Assembly: GCA_945906935.1 (NCBI GenBank)
Contig: CAMDSO010000036.1
Coordinates: 1-34,307 of the forward strand
Reading direction: 5' to 3'
DNA length: 34,307 nucleotides
Source: Bordetella parapertussis
GTDB taxonomy: Bacteria > Pseudomonadota > Gammaproteobacteria > Burkholderiales > SG8-41
In this document: piece after piece, positions 1,312-9,968 of the stretch
How the letters are laid out: each line of letters begins with the position of its first letter
Numbering within the stretch: position 1 is the stretch's first letter
Program-made: the position numbers and the translations under genes
Notes under the pieces: generated by a model
What the model saw: only the letters and a program-made list of their open reading frames with translations
Database searches by the model: none
What the model was told of the DNA's origin: nothing

Positions 1312-1566
1312 ATGGCAACGTTAATGATACGAAATCTGCCTGATGCGGTGTACCGTGCGTTGCGGGTGCGAGCTGCTCAACACGGGGCCACTATAGAAGC
1401 CGAAGTTTGTGAAATTCTTGTGGCGGCACTCAATCCCGACGCCCGGGTTCGCATTGGGGATGCGCTGGCGGCATTGGGTCGCAAGATCGGCCTTACCGAC
1501 GAAGATTTTGAGGTGATGCAAGAGGTGAGAGACAAGGCACCCGCCAAGGCGCCGGGGTTCGTGTGA
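1312..1566 (+). CDS. FitA-type ribbon-helix-helix antitoxin (orphan)
   Basis: An 84-residue protein that resembles FitA antitoxins. The N-terminal strand MATLMIRNLPD and the following helices (AVYRALRVRAAQHGATIEAE) form a ribbon-helix-helix DNA-binding and dimerisation unit, and the C-terminal tail with TDEDFEVMQEVRDK is the usual toxin-binding segment. The open frame extends upstream to 1117, but the family start is the ATG at 1312, so I use that. Such antitoxins normally repress their own promoter with the toxin; CATAAT at 1272-1277 could be its -10 element (weak). The toxin that should overlap its stop codon survives only as a stump, so this is an antitoxin without a target in the window. 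Confidence 0.75.
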   Translation: MATLMIRNLPDAVYRALRVRAAQHGATIEAEVCEILVAALNPDARVRIGDALAALGRKIGLTDEDFEVMQEVRDKAPAKAPGFV

Positions 1567-1885: not shown

Positions 1886-3607
1886 ATGAAAAAATCAATT
1901 GCCTGGTACGACTATCACGCAAAAGATATTACCGTTCAATACGAGCGGGTTTCGCCGGACCTCATTCATGCCTGGTTTGTCGATCTGCTGCCTTCGGGCG
2001 CTGCTTTCGCGCTCGACGTCGGGGCTGGTACTGGCCGCGATGCATCCTGGCTGGCCAGGAAAGGGTATGAGGTTGTCGCGGTCGAGCCTTCGGCTGCAAT
2101 GCGCAATATCGGACAAAGTCTGCATACGGAACCTGGCGTCCAATGGATTGATGATGCGCTGCCGGATTTTAGAAAAGCAGTTCGCCTCGGGCTGAACTTC
2201 GATCTCATTCTCCTGAGTGCGGTATGGATGCACGTGGCAGAGGTTGATCGTTCGCGTGCTTTCCGCAAGCTCATCACCTTGCTGAAGCCGGGTGGATTCA
2301 TGGCGCTCAGTCTGCGCATAGGCTCCATGGGCGATGGTCGTGAAATGCGTCCGGTCACCGAGCAAGAAATAGAAAGACTGGCAAGGGAAAACGGCGCATT
2401 TGTTGAGCGCAGAACAGCAACACCGGATTCCGCGGGACGCACAGAAGTGAGCTGGATCAATTTGGTGGTGCGTCTTCCCGATGATGGCACCGGCGCTCTC
2501 CCGCTTTTGCGGCACATCATTATCAATGACAACAAGTCGTCAACCTACAAACTCGGTTTGCTGCGTGCACTGTGCAGGATCGCCGACGGTGCCGCCGGTT
2601 ATGCGGTCACCGAGAACGAGAGCTTCGTCAGCGTTCCTCTTGGACTGGTGGGGCTCTACTGGTTACGCTTGTTCAAGCCATTGCTCGCTGCCGGTTTACC
2701 GCAGGCACCAACAAACAAGGGGCTCGAGGGCCTGGGTTTTGTGAAAGAGGGTTTTCGTCGTCTTCTGATCGCCGGAACCGATGTTTCGTATCTGGATATG
2801 CGTATCGGCATGACTTTCTCGGGCGATCGTGCCAAAGCATTGCATGCAGCCATTCGTGACGCGTGCACCACCATACAAACCATGCCTGCGACGTATATGA
2901 CCTATCCGAACGGCGGCGCCATCCTGGAAGTGCAGCGGGCCTCGCGTTTGCCAGTGCCAGACAGCATCACCTTGGACGATACCTACCTTGCGAGTTTTGG
3001 CGTGGTTCGTATTCCGCAGAACCTTTGGTCGGCGCTGCAAAAGTTCGAGGTGTGGATCGAGCCGGCGGTCCTCGCGGAGTGGACGCGTCTCATCAAGAGT
3101 TATTGTGCGGCTCAGGGGCGCCCTGTTGAAGATGGCGTGATTGCTTCTGCAATGTTGTGGTTGGAGCCGGGTCGGGACGTCAAGATTGCACGTGAGCAAG
3201 CGGTTCGCTTGATCACAACTGCCGACTTGCGGTGCGTGTGGAGCGGCGCGCGTTTAAACGAGGCCAACCTCGATATCGATCATTGTCTTCCCTGGGTGGC
3301 GTGGCCTTGTGGCGACCTGTGGAATTTGATGCCGGCATCCCGCACCGTAAATCAACACAGGAAGCGGGAAAAAATTCCCGCGGCGTCGGCGTTGAGCGCA
3401 GCGAGAGAACGTATCGAAGAGTGGTGGAGCGATGCCTACTGCAAGGCTCCCAACCTGACTTTGATTGAACAATTCAAACTGCAGGCGCGGGCGAGTCTGC
3501 CGATCGTTTCAAACGATCGCTGTGATCTCGATGAGATATTTATGGGTTTGATGATCCAGCGTATGCGCCTCAAGAATGACCAGCAAGTCGCAGAGTGGGC
3601 TGGATAA
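1886..3607 (+). CDS. Class I SAM methyltransferase fused to HNH endonuclease
   Basis: A 573-residue two-enzyme fusion. Residues 40-190 are a Rossmann methyltransferase: motif I LDVGAGTGRDASWLA (43-57), acidic end of strand 2 VVAVEPS (63-69), and LLKPGGFMALSLR (132-144). The motif IV region reads LILLSAVWMHV and lacks the (N/D)PPY of DNA amino-methyltransferases, so the substrate is more likely a small molecule, RNA or protein. A middle region of unknown role begins INDNKSSTYKLGLLRAL (213-229). Residues 450-497 form an HNH nuclease: C450, the DIDH motif ending at H466, N480 in DLWN, and N489/H491 followed by basic residues. No mobility gene, second subunit or specificity subunit adjoins it. 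It may be a stand-alone defence or modification protein; that is inference. Confidence 0.8.
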   Translation: MKKSIAWYDYHAKDITVQYERVSPDLIHAWFVDLLPSGAAFALDVGAGTGRDASWLARKGYEVVAVEPSAAMRNIGQSLHTEPGVQWIDDALPDFRKAVRLGLNFDLILLSAVWMHVAEVDRSRAFRKLITLLKPGGFMALSLRIGSMGDGREMRPVTEQEIERLARENGAFVERRTATPDSAGRTEVSWINLVVRLPDDGTGALPLLRHIIINDNKSSTYKLGLLRALCRIADGAAGYAVTENESFVSVPLGLVGLYWLRLFKPLLAAGLPQAPTNKGLEGLGFVKEGFRRLLIAGTDVSYLDMRIGMTFSGDRAKALHAAIRDACTTIQTMPATYMTYPNGGAILEVQRASRLPVPDSITLDDTYLASFGVVRIPQNLWSALQKFEVWIEPAVLAEWTRLIKSYCAAQGRPVEDGVIASAMLWLEPGRDVKIAREQAVRLITTADLRCVWSGARLNEANLDIDHCLPWVAWPCGDLWNLMPASRTVNQHRKREKIPAASALSAARERIEEWWSDAYCKAPNLTLIEQFKLQARASLPIVSNDRCDLDEIFMGLMIQRMRLKNDQQVAEWAG

Positions 3608-4421: not shown

Positions 4422-5876
4422 TTGAAACCTGCCAACACCATTGTCATTCTGTCCGACGAACACAATAAACGCGTCACTGGCTGCTACGGGCACCCGATGA
4501 TCAAGACGCCCAATCTCGACAAGCTCGCCGCACGTGGCACGCGCTTTACCTCCGCCTATACCAACTGCCCGATCTGCGTGCCGGCACGTGCTTCGTTTGC
4601 CACCGGCCAGTATGTGCACAAGGTGCGCTGCTGGGACAATGCCATCGCCTATGAGGGCCAGCCGGCAAGCTGGGGCCACCGCTTGATGGAGCAAGGTCAT
4701 CATGTGACGTCCATCGGCAAACTTCATTATCTCGATGCCGATCCCCGTCGCAACGGTTTTGACGAGGAGATACTGCCTTTGCATATCGTCGATGGTCTTG
4801 GTGATCTGCTTGGTTTGATTCGCGACGAGCTGCCAGTGCGGCCCGGTTCGAAACGACTCGGGCCCGAAGCAGGCCCGGGTGAATCGGAATACACCAAATA
4901 CGACCGCGACATCGCCGCCCATACCGTGCAATGGCTGGCCAATGAAGCACCCAAGCATCGCGAAAAACCGTGGATGCTCTACGTCGGTTTTGTCTCGCCG
5001 CACTTCCCGCTGATCGCGCCGCCCGAGTTCTACAACCTGTATCCGGAAAGCGCAGTACCGTGGCCGCTTATGTACGACAAAGCAGAGCGGCCACGCCATC
5101 CGTTCACCGATGCGATGCGCGGCTGCCTCTGCTTTGACGATGAATTCGATCATCCCATGGTGCGTCGCGCGATTGCCGCTTACTTTGGGCTGACCACCTT
5201 CATGGATGCGAACGTTGGCAAAATACTTGCGGCACTCGAGAGTAACGGTCTCCTCGACAACACACGGGTGATTTATTCGTCCGACCATGGTGACAATCTG
5301 GGCACGCGCGGTATGTGGGGCAAGTCGACCATGTACGAAGAGTCGGCCGGCATCCCGCTGATCATGGCGGGGCCGGACATCCCGGCCGGCCAGGTGTCTG
5401 ATGTGCCGGTGACGCTGGCCGACGCCTTTCAGACTATTGTGCAATCGACCGGTGCCCGCGCTGACGCGCGCGACGCGGATCTGCCCGGGCATTCGTTGCT
5501 CGATATCGCCTGCGGCAAGACGCCCGAGCGCACCATCCTCTCCGAGTATCATGCCGCCGGCGCGATCTGTGGTTCTTACATGATCCGCCATCGCAATTTC
5601 AAATTTATTTACTACGTCGGTCTGCCGCCGATGTTGTTTGATCTCGCCGCCGATCCGCAGGAGTGCAACGATCTTGGTCGCGATCCGGCATTTGAAGCGG
5701 TGCGGCGCGAGTGTGAAGCGGCGCTGCGCAAGGTGGTTGATCCGGAGGCCGCTGATCGTCAGGCCAAGGCTGATCAGGCGGCAAAAATCGCTGCGGTGGG
5801 GGGCAAGGCTGCGATTCTCAAACGCGGCACCTTCCGCTACTCGCCGCCGCCCGGCGTCAAACCTTCTTATTACTGA
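4422..5876 (+). CDS. Sulfatase (formylglycine-dependent, choline-sulfatase-like)
   Basis: A 484-residue type I sulfatase that hydrolyses sulfate esters. The maturation motif CVPAR (C52 to R56) gives the formylglycine residue. Metal-binding acidic residues lie at D12-E13 and in SDHGD (287-291). The C-terminal FDLAADPQECNDLGRDP is the usual sulfatase ending. There is no signal peptide, so it should act in the cytoplasm on an imported sulfate ester. It starts with TTG; GGAG lies about 10 bases upstream. Ten bases after its stop begins a Bug binding protein, which suggests one transcript that imports and desulfates a compound. No formylglycine-generating enzyme is in the window. The substrate is unknown. 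Confidence 0.9.
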   Translation: MKPANTIVILSDEHNKRVTGCYGHPMIKTPNLDKLAARGTRFTSAYTNCPICVPARASFATGQYVHKVRCWDNAIAYEGQPASWGHRLMEQGHHVTSIGKLHYLDADPRRNGFDEEILPLHIVDGLGDLLGLIRDELPVRPGSKRLGPEAGPGESEYTKYDRDIAAHTVQWLANEAPKHREKPWMLYVGFVSPHFPLIAPPEFYNLYPESAVPWPLMYDKAERPRHPFTDAMRGCLCFDDEFDHPMVRRAIAAYFGLTTFMDANVGKILAALESNGLLDNTRVIYSSDHGDNLGTRGMWGKSTMYEESAGIPLIMAGPDIPAGQVSDVPVTLADAFQTIVQSTGARADARDADLPGHSLLDIACGKTPERTILSEYHAAGAICGSYMIRHRNFKFIYYVGLPPMLFDLAADPQECNDLGRDPAFEAVRRECEAALRKVVDPEAADRQAKADQAAKIAAVGGKAAILKRGTFRYSPPPGVKPSYY

Positions 5877-5886
5877 GCCTCTGCGG

Positions 5887-6870
5887 ATGCCTGCCATTGG
5901 TGGACTGCAGTTACTCGGCGCGGGCGCCGTGTTGGCGTTCGCCGCGGTGACAGCCTGCGCGCAACATTTTCCGAGCCGCCCCATCCGCTTGTTGGTTCCG
6001 GGGGCCTCGGGGAGTTCCCAGGATGTGCTCTCGCGCATACTTGCCGGGCGCATGTCGGAACTCATCGGGCAACCAGTGGTGGTGGATGCACGCGCCGGGG
6101 CGAGCGGTCTGATCGGCATTGAGTTGGGTAGAGTCGCCGCCCCCGATGGTTACACGCTGGTGGCCGCAACGGCGACGCTGTTTGCAACGCTGCCGGCGCT
6201 CGGTGCCAGGCTGGGCTATGACCCGGATCGGGATTTTTCACCGTTAAGCCGTATGGCCAGCGTGTCGAACGTGTTGCTCGTCAACGCCGGCCTTGGCGTG
6301 AATTCGGTGCCAGAGCTGGTGAAGCTCGCCAAGGCGCGTGCAGGGCAGCTTAATTACGGTTCGGCCGGCAACGCGACCCCCGCGCATCTGGGCGGGGCGA
6401 TGCTCAATACGCTGGCTGGTATCGCGACCAACCACGTTCCATATAAAGGCGCGGCGCAGGCGTTGACCGATGTGATGGCCGGTCAGTTGCAGTATCTGAT
6501 CACCTCGCCACTGGTGGCGATGCCGCATGCGAGTGGCGGGCGCATCCGTGTGATCGCCAGCACCGGCGCGCAACGCGACCCGTTGTTGCCGCAGTTGCCG
6601 ACGGTGGCGGAATTTCTGCCGGGCTTCGAGATCACGCAATGGTGGGGCATCGTGCTACCGGCGAAAACACCGCAAAACATTAGCGCCCGCCTGCACACCG
6701 TGATGGTTAATGCGCTCAACACGCCCGAGGTGCGCGAGCTGGTCGCCAAACAAGGTGCGACAGTGCGTCCGGAATCTCCGGCTGAATTCACTGCGTTCAT
6801 GCAGCTCGAGCGCAAGCGCATTGCCGCGCTTGGTCGTCAGGCCGGTGTTTCCGCAGATGTTGTGCAGTGA
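5887..6870 (+). CDS. Bug/TctC-family periplasmic solute-binding protein
   Basis: A 327-residue Bug-family binding protein starting at the ATG directly downstream of the sulfatase (10 bases). The signal peptide, about 25 residues, ends at TACAQ before HFPSRPIRLL. Family motifs: VDARAGASGLIG near 56, DGYTLVAAT near 81, VPYKGAAQALTDVM near 180. The frame is open further upstream into the sulfatase, but those codons do not resemble the family and the ATG at 5887 gives a proper signal peptide. The tight link makes it the likely binding protein for the sulfatase substrate or its product (inference). Confidence 0.92.
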   Translation: MPAIGGLQLLGAGAVLAFAAVTACAQHFPSRPIRLLVPGASGSSQDVLSRILAGRMSELIGQPVVVDARAGASGLIGIELGRVAAPDGYTLVAATATLFATLPALGARLGYDPDRDFSPLSRMASVSNVLLVNAGLGVNSVPELVKLAKARAGQLNYGSAGNATPAHLGGAMLNTLAGIATNHVPYKGAAQALTDVMAGQLQYLITSPLVAMPHASGGRIRVIASTGAQRDPLLPQLPTVAEFLPGFEITQWWGIVLPAKTPQNISARLHTVMVNALNTPEVRELVAKQGATVRPESPAEFTAFMQLERKRIAALGRQAGVSADVVQ

Positions 6871-6943: not shown

Positions 6944-7918
6944 ATGAATTTTGGATTGAAGCTTGCACGTTACCTGTCCGGCGCTTTGGTGCTGACACTG
7001 GCCACGGTGGTTGCGGCGCAGAATTACCCTTTCAAAAATATCAACTTGGTGGTCGGTTATCCGCCCGGTGGCGGCGCTGATCTATTTGCGCGTGCCATTG
7101 CGCAGGATATGGCGCGTCAGTTCGACAAGCAAATCATCGTCGATAACCGCAGTGGCGCGGCGGGTAATATCGGCACCGAATATGTTGTCAAGGCGCCGCC
7201 TGACGGTTACACGTTGCTGTATACGCCTTCGCCGATTGCCGTGAGCAAGGTGATGTCGAAGAACCTGAGCTTTGACGCGCAGCGGGATCTGCGCCCGATT
7301 TCGATGAGTATCTCGACCCCGCTGGTGCTGGCGGTGCATCCGTCATTGCCGGTGAAAAACGTCAAGGATCTGATTGCGCTTGCCAAGGCGCGGCCCGGCA
7401 CGCTGACCTATAGCTCATCCGGCGTCGGCAACAGCGGGCATTTCACAATGGTTTTGCTCAACGCCAGCGCCAGTATCGATACGCGCCACGTGCCCTACCG
7501 GGGGGCTGCCCCGTCACTGACATCGGTGATCTCGGGTGAGACGCAAATGGCCTTTCTGGTGCCGCCGTTAGTGCTGCCGCATGCGGGCAGCGGCAAGCTG
7601 CATTTGCTCGCCGTATCAAGTCGCAAGCGCGCACCAGTGTTTCCTGATCTTCCGACCATGCAGGAACAGGGCGTGCGTGGCTACGAGGCGCTGCAGTGGC
7701 ACGGCTTTTTTGCCCCGGCGGCAACCGCCGACGCAGTGATTAATACGCTCCACGGTGCGGTGGTCAAAGCGTTGGCCAGACCTGAGTTGAAATCACGTCT
7801 GATTGCCGAGGGCGCCGAGATTGTGGGTAGTTCGCCGACGGCGTTTGCGGCCTTCTTTCAGCAGGAGGTTGTGAAGTGGACCGAGGTGGCGAAATGGGCG
7901 GGTGTGCAGCCGGAGTAA
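6944..7918 (+). CDS. Bug/TctC-family periplasmic solute-binding protein
   Basis: A 324-residue Bug-family binding protein. The signal peptide of about 25 residues ends at VVAAQ before NYPFKNINLV. Family motifs: YPPGGGADLFARAIAQDM near 38, VDNRSGAAGNIG near 66, DGYTLLYTP near 86, VPYRGAAPS near 182. It follows the previous Bug gene by 73 bases. That gap holds a perfect 12-base palindrome ACGCCGCGGCGT at 6874-6885. A GGGAAG sequence 5 bases before the ATG may serve for ribosome binding. It converges on the minus-strand Bug gene, with 29 bases between stops. Confidence 0.93.
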   Translation: MNFGLKLARYLSGALVLTLATVVAAQNYPFKNINLVVGYPPGGGADLFARAIAQDMARQFDKQIIVDNRSGAAGNIGTEYVVKAPPDGYTLLYTPSPIAVSKVMSKNLSFDAQRDLRPISMSISTPLVLAVHPSLPVKNVKDLIALAKARPGTLTYSSSGVGNSGHFTMVLLNASASIDTRHVPYRGAAPSLTSVISGETQMAFLVPPLVLPHAGSGKLHLLAVSSRKRAPVFPDLPTMQEQGVRGYEALQWHGFFAPAATADAVINTLHGAVVKALARPELKSRLIAEGAEIVGSSPTAFAAFFQQEVVKWTEVAKWAGVQPE

Positions 7919-7947: not shown

Positions 7948-8916
7948 TTACTGCGGTTTGAATCCGATGTCACGTGTGAGCTTGCCCCATCGTGCGAAAT
8001 CACTGCGGATGGTTTCGGCGAAAAACTCCGGCGACTCGGTGTGAATCTCCAGCCCGTATGACTTCATCTGATTTTGAATTTCAGGCAATGCCAGGGCGCG
8101 GTTGATCTCGCTGTTGAGTAGTTGGATGATTTCCTTGGGCGTATTGGCCGGTGCCACGATCCCGTACCAGCCGCCTGCGGTGTAGCCGGGGATGGTTTCG
8201 GCGATGGTCGGCACGTTGGGATAATCCGCCATGCGTGTGGCCCGTGCAATCGCAAGCATACGCAGGCGGCCGGACGCGGCCAGCGGTTGCATCGAGATAA
8301 ACGAAGCGAGCACCGCATCGATGCGCCCGCCCATCACATCGGTATAGATTTGCGACATGCCCCGATACGGCACGTGCAGATAGCTGTAGCCAGCCTGCAC
8401 ACGCAGCAATTCGAGTGTGAAATGTTGAAATCCGCCCTCGCCCGTGGAACCGAAGGAAAGTTTTCCCGGGTTGGCTTTGGCGAATTTGACCAGATCTGCG
8501 ACCGTCCGAAACGGAACGCTGGGGTGCACCGCCAGCGCCGAGAAGTTCGAGGCAAGAAGGGCGATCGGTGCAAAGTCCTTGGGTGAATCGTAGGCGACTT
8601 TGCGATAGGCCAGTGGGGCGATGACCATGTTGCCGCCCTGTCCGCAGGCGAGGGTATAGCCATCCGGGGATGCCTGCGTCAGTAGTTGCAGGCCGAGTTG
8701 TCCGGCGACACCGGCGCGGTTGTCGATCGTAAAAGGCTGGCCGAGGCGTTCGCTGATTTTTTGTGCGACTAATCGGGTTAGCACGTCGCAGCTGTCGCCA
8801 GGCGTCGCCGGAATGATGATGCGGGGCGGCTTGTTTGGATAGGTTTGCGCAGACGCCGTGCCGCCAATGATGGACAGCAAGAGCAGTCGCAACACCGTGA
8901 AGGGGGAATTCTTCAA
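7948..8916 (-). CDS. Bug/TctC-family periplasmic solute-binding protein
   Basis: A Bug-family binding protein of about 322 residues. I place the start at the TTG at 8916, which gives a compact signal peptide ending at TASAQ before TYPNKPPRII and has GGAG about 11 bases upstream. A longer form could begin at the TTG at 8985, overlapping the previous gene, but its first 23 residues are not signal-like. Family motifs are present: IPATPGDSCDVLTRLVAQ, IDNRAGVAGQLG, DGYTLACGQGG and VPYRGMSQIYTDVM. Downstream of 9968-8982 on the same strand, and probably co-transcribed with it. The cysteine in GDSC at the ligand-facing loop is unusual for the family. Confidence 0.92.
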   Translation of the reverse strand: MKNSPFTVLRLLLLSIIGGTASAQTYPNKPPRIIIPATPGDSCDVLTRLVAQKISERLGQPFTIDNRAGVAGQLGLQLLTQASPDGYTLACGQGGNMVIAPLAYRKVAYDSPKDFAPIALLASNFSALAVHPSVPFRTVADLVKFAKANPGKLSFGSTGEGGFQHFTLELLRVQAGYSYLHVPYRGMSQIYTDVMGGRIDAVLASFISMQPLAASGRLRMLAIARATRMADYPNVPTIAETIPGYTAGGWYGIVAPANTPKEIIQLLNSEINRALALPEIQNQMKSYGLEIHTESPEFFAETIRSDFARWGKLTRDIGFKPQ

Positions 8917-8981
8917 AACGCTGTACGCTCCAATACGCGAGGCGAAACGGTGCAGGGTTGCCACGCGGGTCGAGGCACGGT

Positions 8982-9968
8982 TCAATCGAATTTCAGATTC
9001 GCAGATTTGACCACCTGCAGGTTACTGACAACCTCCTGTTTCAACAGCGCCTCAAATTCGGTTGGTGAAAGCGGAAGCGGCTCAACCCCGAGCGGCGCGA
9101 GTTTTTCCACAACGCCAGGCAGCGACATCGAACGCATGATCTCTCGATGCAGGCGCTCGATCACCGCCCTGGGTGTTTTTGCCGGAACGAACACACCGTT
9201 CCAGAATAAATAGTCCGAATCCGGGTAACCCAGTTCCAGCGTAGTCGGGACGTCCGGCAGTGCGGGGGTGCGCTTGGGCGTGCTGACTGCAAGCGCCAGA
9301 AGGCGCCCCTCGCGTATGTACGGCAGTACGCTGGCGAGACCGAATGACATAAAGTCCACGCGCCCCGGCACCACCTCGCGTATCGCGTCGGGGCCGCCCT
9401 TGTAGGGAATGTGCACGGCATCGAAGCCGGCGCTGAGGCGCAGGCGCTCCACCGACCAGTGGCTCGAGGAGCCAACACCTGATGACGCGAAGCTCAGCTT
9501 CTCCCTTTTTGCCAGTGTTACCAGTTCCTTCAGGGTTTTAACGCCTTTGGATGGTGCGATGACGGTAATGCTCGGCACGCTGCCCAGCGTGGCGACGGCG
9601 GAAAAATCCTTCAACGTGTCGTAGGAAGCCTTGGGGTAGACCGCGGGTGTCAGCGTATGCGCGGAGGAGTGGGCGAGCAGCGTATGGCCGTCGGCCTCGG
9701 CTTGAGCCACCGCCGCCGCACCGATGGTGCCGCCGGCGCCGCCGCGATTATCAATCGCAATCGGTTGGCCCAGTTGCGCGGACACGGGCTCCAGCACCAG
9801 GCGTGCAATGATATCGATAGCACTCCCCGCGGAAAACGGCACGACCGCCCTGATTGGTTTTTGTGGCCAGTTTTGTGCGCCTGCCGGTTTGATCGTTGCC
9901 GCAGCGATGCCGCAAACAATAAAAAACCCCGAGCGCGCACGTGCGACGTCAATAATAAAATTTTTCAT
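8982..9968 (-). CDS. Bug/TctC-family periplasmic solute-binding protein
   Basis: A 328-residue Bug-family binding protein and first gene of a two-gene minus-strand unit. The signal peptide (about 31 residues) ends at KPAGAQ before NWPQKPIRAV. Family motifs: VPFSAGSAIDIIARLV near 42, IDNRGGAGGTIG near 72, DGHTLLAHS near 92 (H replaces the usual Y), VPYKGGPDAIREV near 187. It is divergent from the PQQ-dehydrogenase gene across about 300 bases. No membrane transporter subunits accompany it. Confidence 0.92.
   Translation of the reverse strand: MKNFIIDVARARSGFFIVCGIAAATIKPAGAQNWPQKPIRAVVPFSAGSAIDIIARLVLEPVSAQLGQPIAIDNRGGAGGTIGAAAVAQAEADGHTLLAHSSAHTLTPAVYPKASYDTLKDFSAVATLGSVPSITVIAPSKGVKTLKELVTLAKREKLSFASSGVGSSSHWSVERLRLSAGFDAVHIPYKGGPDAIREVVPGRVDFMSFGLASVLPYIREGRLLALAVSTPKRTPALPDVPTTLELGYPDSDYLFWNGVFVPAKTPRAVIERLHREIMRSMSLPGVVEKLAPLGVEPLPLSPTEFEALLKQEVVSNLQVVKSANLKFD

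Follow-up and report, generated by a model that had tools for sequence, protein, structure and literature searches.

The gene at positions 1,886 to 3,607 of the window (the whole 34,307-nucleotide stretch of DNA that was analysed) encodes a single chain of 573 residues in which a class I SAM-dependent methyltransferase is joined to an HNH nuclease, and this architecture is best filed as a restriction-type nuclease whose attached methyltransferase falls outside the DNA-amino type. We consider it likely that the window gene encodes a bacterial defence protein. More tentatively, with a little less than even confidence, we favour a single-chain restriction or defence nuclease that keeps type IV-like company and whose cutting is controlled by the non-DNA methyltransferase domain. 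The features of the window that bear on this proposal are as follows.

1312..1566, + strand: orphan FitA-like ribbon-helix-helix antitoxin, a neighbour only (PF22513, E=1.7e-16)
1886..3607, + strand: methyltransferase-HNH fusion gene, 573 aa (P0001, the window protein); intact open reading frame with an ATG start; relatives in named species
1886..2500, + strand: class I SAM-dependent methyltransferase domain, residues 1-205
2012..2056, + strand: methyltransferase motif I, residues 43-57, LDVGAGTGRDASWLA; D44, G46 and G50 invariant in 23/23 aligned fused proteins, G48 in 22/23
2216..2233, + strand: SAVWMH at the position of motif IV, residues 111-116, instead of [DNS]PP[YFW]; H116 in 23/23 and W114 in 21/23 fused proteins
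2501..3205, + strand: middle domain, residues 206-440, opening with a D.K..TYKLxLLRAL motif; aligns with stand-alone HNH proteins
3233..3385, + strand: HNH nuclease core, residues 450-500; D465, H466, N480, N489 and K493 invariant in 23/23 aligned fused proteins
3386..3604, + strand: C-terminal helical tail, residues 501-573; aligned in fused relatives and helical in both models

The single-chain fusion, first proposed from a sequence-only reading of the window, is borne out: the chance of 573 open codons at this composition is about 1e-10, and named species have proteins that are 36-55% identical to it along almost the entire chain. Its GC3 (0.62) differs mildly from that of three other window genes (0.67-0.78). 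The gene is flanked by a TctC receptor, the FitA-like antitoxin and a sulfatase, and these ordinary metabolic genes and antitoxin count against the reading that we favour. By eye, a run of TctC/Bug-type receptors (38-1015, 5638-6870, 6944-7918, 7948-8985 and 8982-9968) surrounds the sulfatase and a PQQ-dehydrogenase-like gene, the Pfam check having covered the first receptor and the sulfatase. The island of decayed toxin-antitoxin genes that had been proposed here is supported by the antitoxin itself, but the evidence is otherwise thin: a 45-aa stretch at 1071-1208 on the minus strand has no Pfam match and may, from its resemblance to the C-terminus of VapC, be a remnant opposite the antitoxin.

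The N-terminal domain combines a SAM-binding motif I, located exactly where it had been predicted, with a Rossmann-like fold, and is thus a class I SAM-dependent methyltransferase; the general family Methyltransf_11 of Pfam spans residues 43-140 (E=1e-13). As the sequence-only reading also held, the motif IV of DNA amino-methyltransferases is lacking: [DNS]PP[YFW] occurs nowhere in the window protein, nor within residues 1-215 of any of the 23 aligned fused proteins. The residues W114 and H116 of the SAVWMH segment found in its place are invariant in 16 methyltransferases taken from the main subgroups of the family. No cytosine PC motif occurs in the methyltransferase domain of the window protein, its sole PC falling in the HNH part. 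Fold matches include 3e23, UbiG, ChlM, METTL6, CmoM and TehB, and none of the best 50 fold matches listed for the domain bears a DNA methyltransferase label. The modelled fold thus points away from DNA methyltransferases but appears to fit small-molecule, tRNA and peptide enzymes alike and offers no choice among them. The family also shows weak kinship to TehB and TPMT.

These observations make it quite improbable that the protein is a single-chain restriction-modification enzyme of type IIC/IIG, whose methyltransferase would mark host DNA while the HNH nuclease would cut unmarked DNA. Such an enzyme would indeed hold both activities in one chain, and in split forms of the fusion the methyltransferase gene immediately precedes that of the nuclease, as in many restriction-modification pairs. 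However, motif IV is missing from every aligned fused protein, no DNA methyltransferase label appears among the 50 fold matches, a methyltransferase domain of about 200 residues leaves little room for a target recognition domain, and the nuclease half is also found without any methyltransferase.

The HNH residues are present as originally claimed (DIDH at 463-466, LWNL at 478-481 and NQHRK at 489-493), so that the window protein carries the complete D-H, N, N..K catalytic signature of the HNH_4/Cas9 type with its metal-site residues intact. Pfam HNH_4 spans residues 456-498 (E=6e-4, 20.2 bits), just below the 22-bit cut-off that two stand-alone relatives exceed, and when the nuclease half and its relatives are made into a profile, the first matches are the HNH domains of Cas9 (E=2.3e-7). 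Between the two catalytic domains, the middle segment opens with INDNKSSTYKLGLLRAL at residue 213, again as described; it has no Pfam match in the window protein, and a search with a model of the middle and HNH part, itself of moderate quality (pLDDT 64, pTM 0.60), returned no known fold above noise, which weighs against the favoured reading. We nevertheless reject the view of the middle as a mere linker: residues 206-440 can be aligned to the N-terminal half of HNH proteins that stand alone in other phyla and measure about 380-393 aa (Deinococcus, Nostoc, Hymenobacter and Leptolyngbya; 24-28% identity over the matched parts), and D.K....K..L.R plus a later W are invariant in nine rows. Because the middle also occurs with HNH alone, it belongs to the nuclease half. 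When the Nostoc stand-alone protein was used as query against 299 sampled proteobacterial genomes, all 11 hits fell on fusion loci, including the broken copy of genome G627. In G615 the methyltransferase gene is followed by a separate HNH gene that starts similarly (TATYKFALLHAL), and the pair is possibly a natural, very divergent split of the fusion.

We read 40 fused loci, window included, the near-copy plasmid locus L052 being left out as a duplicate. A tblastn search of plasmids gave 60 records, in nine of which a single place accounts for at least 80% of the query; the product names in plasmid records are generic (e.g. 'class I SAM-dependent methyltransferase'). A scan of genome contigs gave ten loci (one Alcanivorax and nine Marinobacter). 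Whole-genome searches, in which bare methyltransferases are counted too, were positive for 25 genomes out of 399 from the order (E<=1e-10) and for 35 out of 398 from the phylum (E<=1e-15). The alignment reaches 500 residues or more in 15 of these 35, among them the window's own genome, and a further one, G627, has its copy split between two frames. Among named hosts the fusion occurs in alpha- and gammaproteobacteria, in collections that may omit records close to the window's genome. No NCBIfam or PADLOC model with a hit at E<=1 covers the whole architecture and no description of it was found in the open literature searched, so that identity to a characterised family did not materialise.

The alignment of 23 fused proteins used throughout was picked from the 40 loci as unbroken copies, with three broken and 14 other loci outside it. 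In the methyltransferase half, D44, G46, G50, D52, E67, H116, R152, R185 and W190 are invariant in 23/23, and R144 is kept in 20/23. Both halves appear to be under selection because the SAM-binding residues and the HNH catalytic residues are nearly all invariant across these 23 sequences. Decay is seen elsewhere: L009 is truncated, L021/L058 has lost the HNH signature, L035/L072 and L125 are split, and L143 is probably the remainder of a fusion. The nearest copy by its methyltransferase, L062, is 63% identical over 170 residues and stops at residue 171, with an HsdM gene and an HNH_2 gene close by.

Could the protein be an ordinary metabolic or tRNA methyltransferase with an incidental, inactive HNH tail? 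The small-molecule/tRNA-type fold and the loss or breakage of the HNH half in some fused copies would agree with this, as would the many bare methyltransferases of the family that stand among housekeeping genes (neighbours named by eye; L067, L127, L142 and others). By reading of the sequences, such loci lie for instance near rplI and dnaB, or near tsf and pyrH. Since family members in these neighbourhoods, L067 and L127, have the same invariant residues, the methyltransferase alone is no marker of defence. The fused relatives, however, do not sit mainly in housekeeping operons, the HNH catalytic residues never vary among the 23 aligned fused proteins, alpha- and gammaproteobacteria alike retain the fusion among named hosts, and its neighbours are rich in defence genes. 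We therefore regard this explanation as very improbable. In Streptomyces a methyltransferase of the same family is fused to a GNAT acetyltransferase domain (L013, 5959-7089).

The genes beside the fusion provide the type IV-like company. A bait search, in which one locus of each kind supplied the bait, found a restriction or helicase neighbour in 13 of the 40 fused loci: SauUSI-like in nine, SBD-nuclease-like in two and a Schlafen-type helicase in two. The remaining 27, window included, have no adjacent restriction or helicase partner by the baits used, a count that tells against the favoured reading. The earlier assertion that the gene has no companions thus holds for the window copy but not for the family. 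The nine SauUSI-like cases are adjacent PLD-SF2-DUF3427 genes, the layout described for the type IV enzyme SauUSI; seven belong to a single Marinobacter lineage and lie on the same strand, G629 is also same-strand and G520 is convergent. That seven of the nine come from one genus is a further argument against the proposal. In G737 a gene of this layout lies 5 kb from the fusion. Of the 92 neighbour proteins scanned, three are matched by the type IV mREase models of PADLOC (best E=7.5e-228); these may be the three PLD-SF2-DUF3427 proteins present among the 92. In two Marinobacter loci the neighbour resembles an SBD-NOV_C nuclease, on the same strand in one (the bait) and on the opposite strand in the other, and two distant fusions follow a Schlafen-group (SLFN-type) helicase, one of them the bait. 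In Marinobacter fuscus a gene just upstream of the fusion (L006, 6614-7930) joins a weakly SBD-like N-terminus (NF045808, 20 bits) to NOV_C; from its sequence, this may be a new make-up of a phosphorothioate-dependent nuclease.

Co-occurrence with defence genes was a check proposed at the outset. Genome-wide, 7 of the 22 genomes with a fusion have DUF3427, and so do 11 in a sample of 200 (Fisher p ~5e-4, uncorrected for kinship; the window's genome lies outside the 22 and at least one genome is common to both sets). At E<=1e-8, the neighbours of 24 of the 40 fused loci (92 proteins) drew 133 PADLOC models, and those of 14 non-fused methyltransferase loci (82 proteins) drew 5. Models rather than proteins are counted, with the gene calls of this analysis, and two genes per side were taken for fused and three for non-fused loci; the fused set left out seven plasmid loci, eight of the ten genome-contig loci and the window. 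PADLOC confirms BrxL, RT-Toprim, AbiEii, DpdE and WYL among the fusion neighbours. Neighbours named partly by eye are PglZ, BrxL and a reverse transcriptase (G270), AbiE with an integrase (G380) and WYL regulators (G520, G704 and G713), and the fusion of Roseomonas haemaphysalidis has annotated neighbours mcrC and VapC. The defence-type surroundings proposed for the gene are therefore those of part of its relatives, but not of the window gene, whose flanks are metabolic apart from the antitoxin; the window's genome has no DUF3427, no DndC and, at 1e-8, no match to NF045808.

The bare methyltransferase also keeps other partners. It adjoins PLD-helicases (G413 and G715), an SF2 helicase (G744), the separate HNH gene of G615 and, in G494 and G724, SBD-HNH-like genes lying 3' of it, whose NF045808 scores (72 and 46 bits) are below the 180-bit cut-off. 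In a quick methyltransferase tree, the SBD-HNH-like and split-HNH partners nest within a clade of fusions (SH-aLRT 97), and partners thus seem to have been exchanged during the history of the family. A homologous 2-TM protein occurs in nine loci, fused to the methyltransferase (Rhizobium phaseoli, G642 and G621) or encoded just 5' of it (phi458, two E. coli prophages, one of them of phi458's own kind, Sphingomonas, G389 and G151).

Such exchange would suit a guard, or abortive infection, system in which the methyltransferase senses SAM, SAH or blocked methylation and, once SAM is destroyed or methylation blocked by a phage, releases a held-back effector that damages the cell's own DNA. The effector would be the HNH nuclease in the window protein, and other nucleases or the 2-TM protein in its relatives. 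That members of one methyltransferase family are fused to or neighbour HNH, SBD-HNH-like, PLD-helicase, SLFN helicase and 2-TM proteins, that the partner switches to SBD-HNH-like or separate HNH within the fusion clade, and that the SAM site is nearly invariant all argue for a guard. However, SauUSI and the SBD-HNH enzymes, which some of the neighbours resemble, attack foreign DNA directly and need no guard, and overall we judge this scheme unlikely, if worth keeping in sight.

All nine 2-TM loci (9/9) contain at least one phosphorothioation-type gene by the baits used (Dnd genes, DUF4007 and/or its ATPase, a PAPS-reductase relative or a desulfurase), three of the nine having supplied baits; the weakest cases are G389, whose desulfurase is nearer NifS than DndA, and G621, with the ATPase only and no DndC. 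The Rhizobium phaseoli locus has Dnd genes, the methyltransferases of G642 and G657 lie about 5-7 kb from dndC, the Sphingomonas locus has DUF4007, ATPase, desulfurase and PAPS reductase genes, and G151 has relatives of DUF4007 and the ATPase. Among 19 viral methyltransferase loci (several are near-copies and some end at contig ends), 12 have the 2-TM protein, the methyltransferase and a PAPS-reductase relative, three the methyltransferase and the PAPS-reductase relative, one the 2-TM protein and the methyltransferase, and three neither partner. In E. coli prophages and viral contigs (L056, 2336-4775; L080, 4431-6858; L170-L184) the 2-TM and methyltransferase genes are accompanied by a convergent gene of the PAPS-reductase family. 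In L078 (49-6603) and L069 (9084-15009) they are divergent from DUF4007 and ATPase genes, with a desulfurase and a PAPS reductase also present in L078; from reading the sequences we take these gene sets to be of the BREX4/Ssp type.

It is tempting to speculate that the window protein is a modification-dependent enzyme acting on phosphorothioated or otherwise modified DNA, the methyltransferase attacking the modified group (for example by a destabilising S-methylation of the phosphorothioate) and the HNH nuclease cutting there. The family members in phosphorothioation-type loci (Rhizobium phaseoli, G642, G657, Sphingomonas, G151 and the E. coli prophages), the PAPS-reductase relative in 15 of the 19 viral loci, the weak, below-cut-off NF045808 matches that adjoin the methyltransferase in G494 and G724 or the fusion in M. 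fuscus, and the kinship to TehB and TPMT point in this direction. Against it, no phosphorothioate synthesis gene was found in the 40 fused loci by the baits used; DndC is absent from the window's genome and passed the cut-off in none of the 23 fused genomes searched (weak matches in G056, 106 bits, and G078, 20 bits); a profile comparison of the middle domain with SBD (five SBD rows) was not significant (probability 0.3%); and methyltransferases of the housekeeping type have the same invariant residues. The absence of DndC is compatible with such a role because type IV enzymes live in phosphorothioate-free hosts. On balance we find this reading improbable. A broader version is a long shot: the methyltransferase family would serve DNA-modification-linked immunity as a portable module for control or processing. 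Its effectors (Cas9-like HNH, SBD-HNH, PLD-helicase, SLFN helicase and 2-TM membrane protein) would be interchangeable, and it would act on the modified group or on the nucleotide precursor of that group. It might, for instance, erase or destabilise DNA phosphorothioate by S-methylation, the window protein holding this chemistry and a nuclease in one chain.

We thus return to the single-chain nuclease under methyltransferase control, for which the following mechanism may be suggested. The middle domain would position the HNH nuclease on foreign, perhaps modified, DNA, and the HNH nuclease would nick or cut the bound DNA. The methyltransferase would write no sequence-specific DNA mark; its acceptor may instead be a small or general one, or the protein itself. 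Whether it has SAM bound or is methylating would decide if the HNH nuclease may cut, comparable to SAM gating in type IIG enzymes. A precedent for SAM control exists in RM.BpuSI, where the methyltransferase domain and SAM are reported to facilitate cutting. In some lineages the fusion may have a type IV (modification-dependent) enzyme or a helicase as its working partner, whereas in the window's genome it would work alone. If this is true, the fusions add to the restriction factors a family that is widespread in proteobacteria and has a non-DNA methyltransferase built in. It would also show that one methyltransferase family accompanies several restriction nucleases, some of modification-dependent kinds, as well as phosphorothioation-type loci, and this makes two questions testable: the role of the methyltransferase in type IV and phosphorothioate systems, and the enzymatic processing or erasure of DNA backbone sulfur.

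How does the protein compare with known systems? One defence profile matched by its methyltransferase is mad2 of MADS (PADLOC PDLC04134): residues 21-183 of the window protein match positions 273-430 of 492 (E=1.6e-15). The cover is only partial, no other MADS gene was recognised beside the window gene, whose checked flanks are metabolic or antitoxin genes, and the window protein has an HNH domain; we do not assign it to MADS. RPA2492 (PDB 3e23) is 17% identical to the methyltransferase in the fold alignment and has no nuclease. By profile, the nearest solved relative of the nuclease is the HNH domain of Cas9 (E=2.3e-7), and the window protein matches no other part of Cas9 in Pfam. The phosphorothioate-dependent SBD-HNH enzymes (EcoWI and SprMcrA; NF045808) also combine a reader domain with an HNH nuclease, a similar short motif starts their reader domain, and their relatives lie 3' of a methyltransferase of the same family in G494 and G724. 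The window protein nonetheless appears to fall outside this class: NF045808 is not among its NCBIfam hits at E<=1, and the HNH of the window protein is of the HNH_4 and not the HNH_2 type. RM.BpuSI and other type IIC/IIG enzymes likewise hold methyltransferase and nuclease in one chain; the window protein differs from them in using HNH and in having neither motif IV, nor a cytosine PC in its methyltransferase domain, nor an evident target recognition domain, and is probably not a member of that group. Finally, the type IV enzyme SauUSI is a separate protein, and at E<=1 the window protein matches neither PLD nor helicase nor DUF3427 families. Genes of the SauUSI layout are the commonest restriction neighbour of the fusion (9/40 loci).
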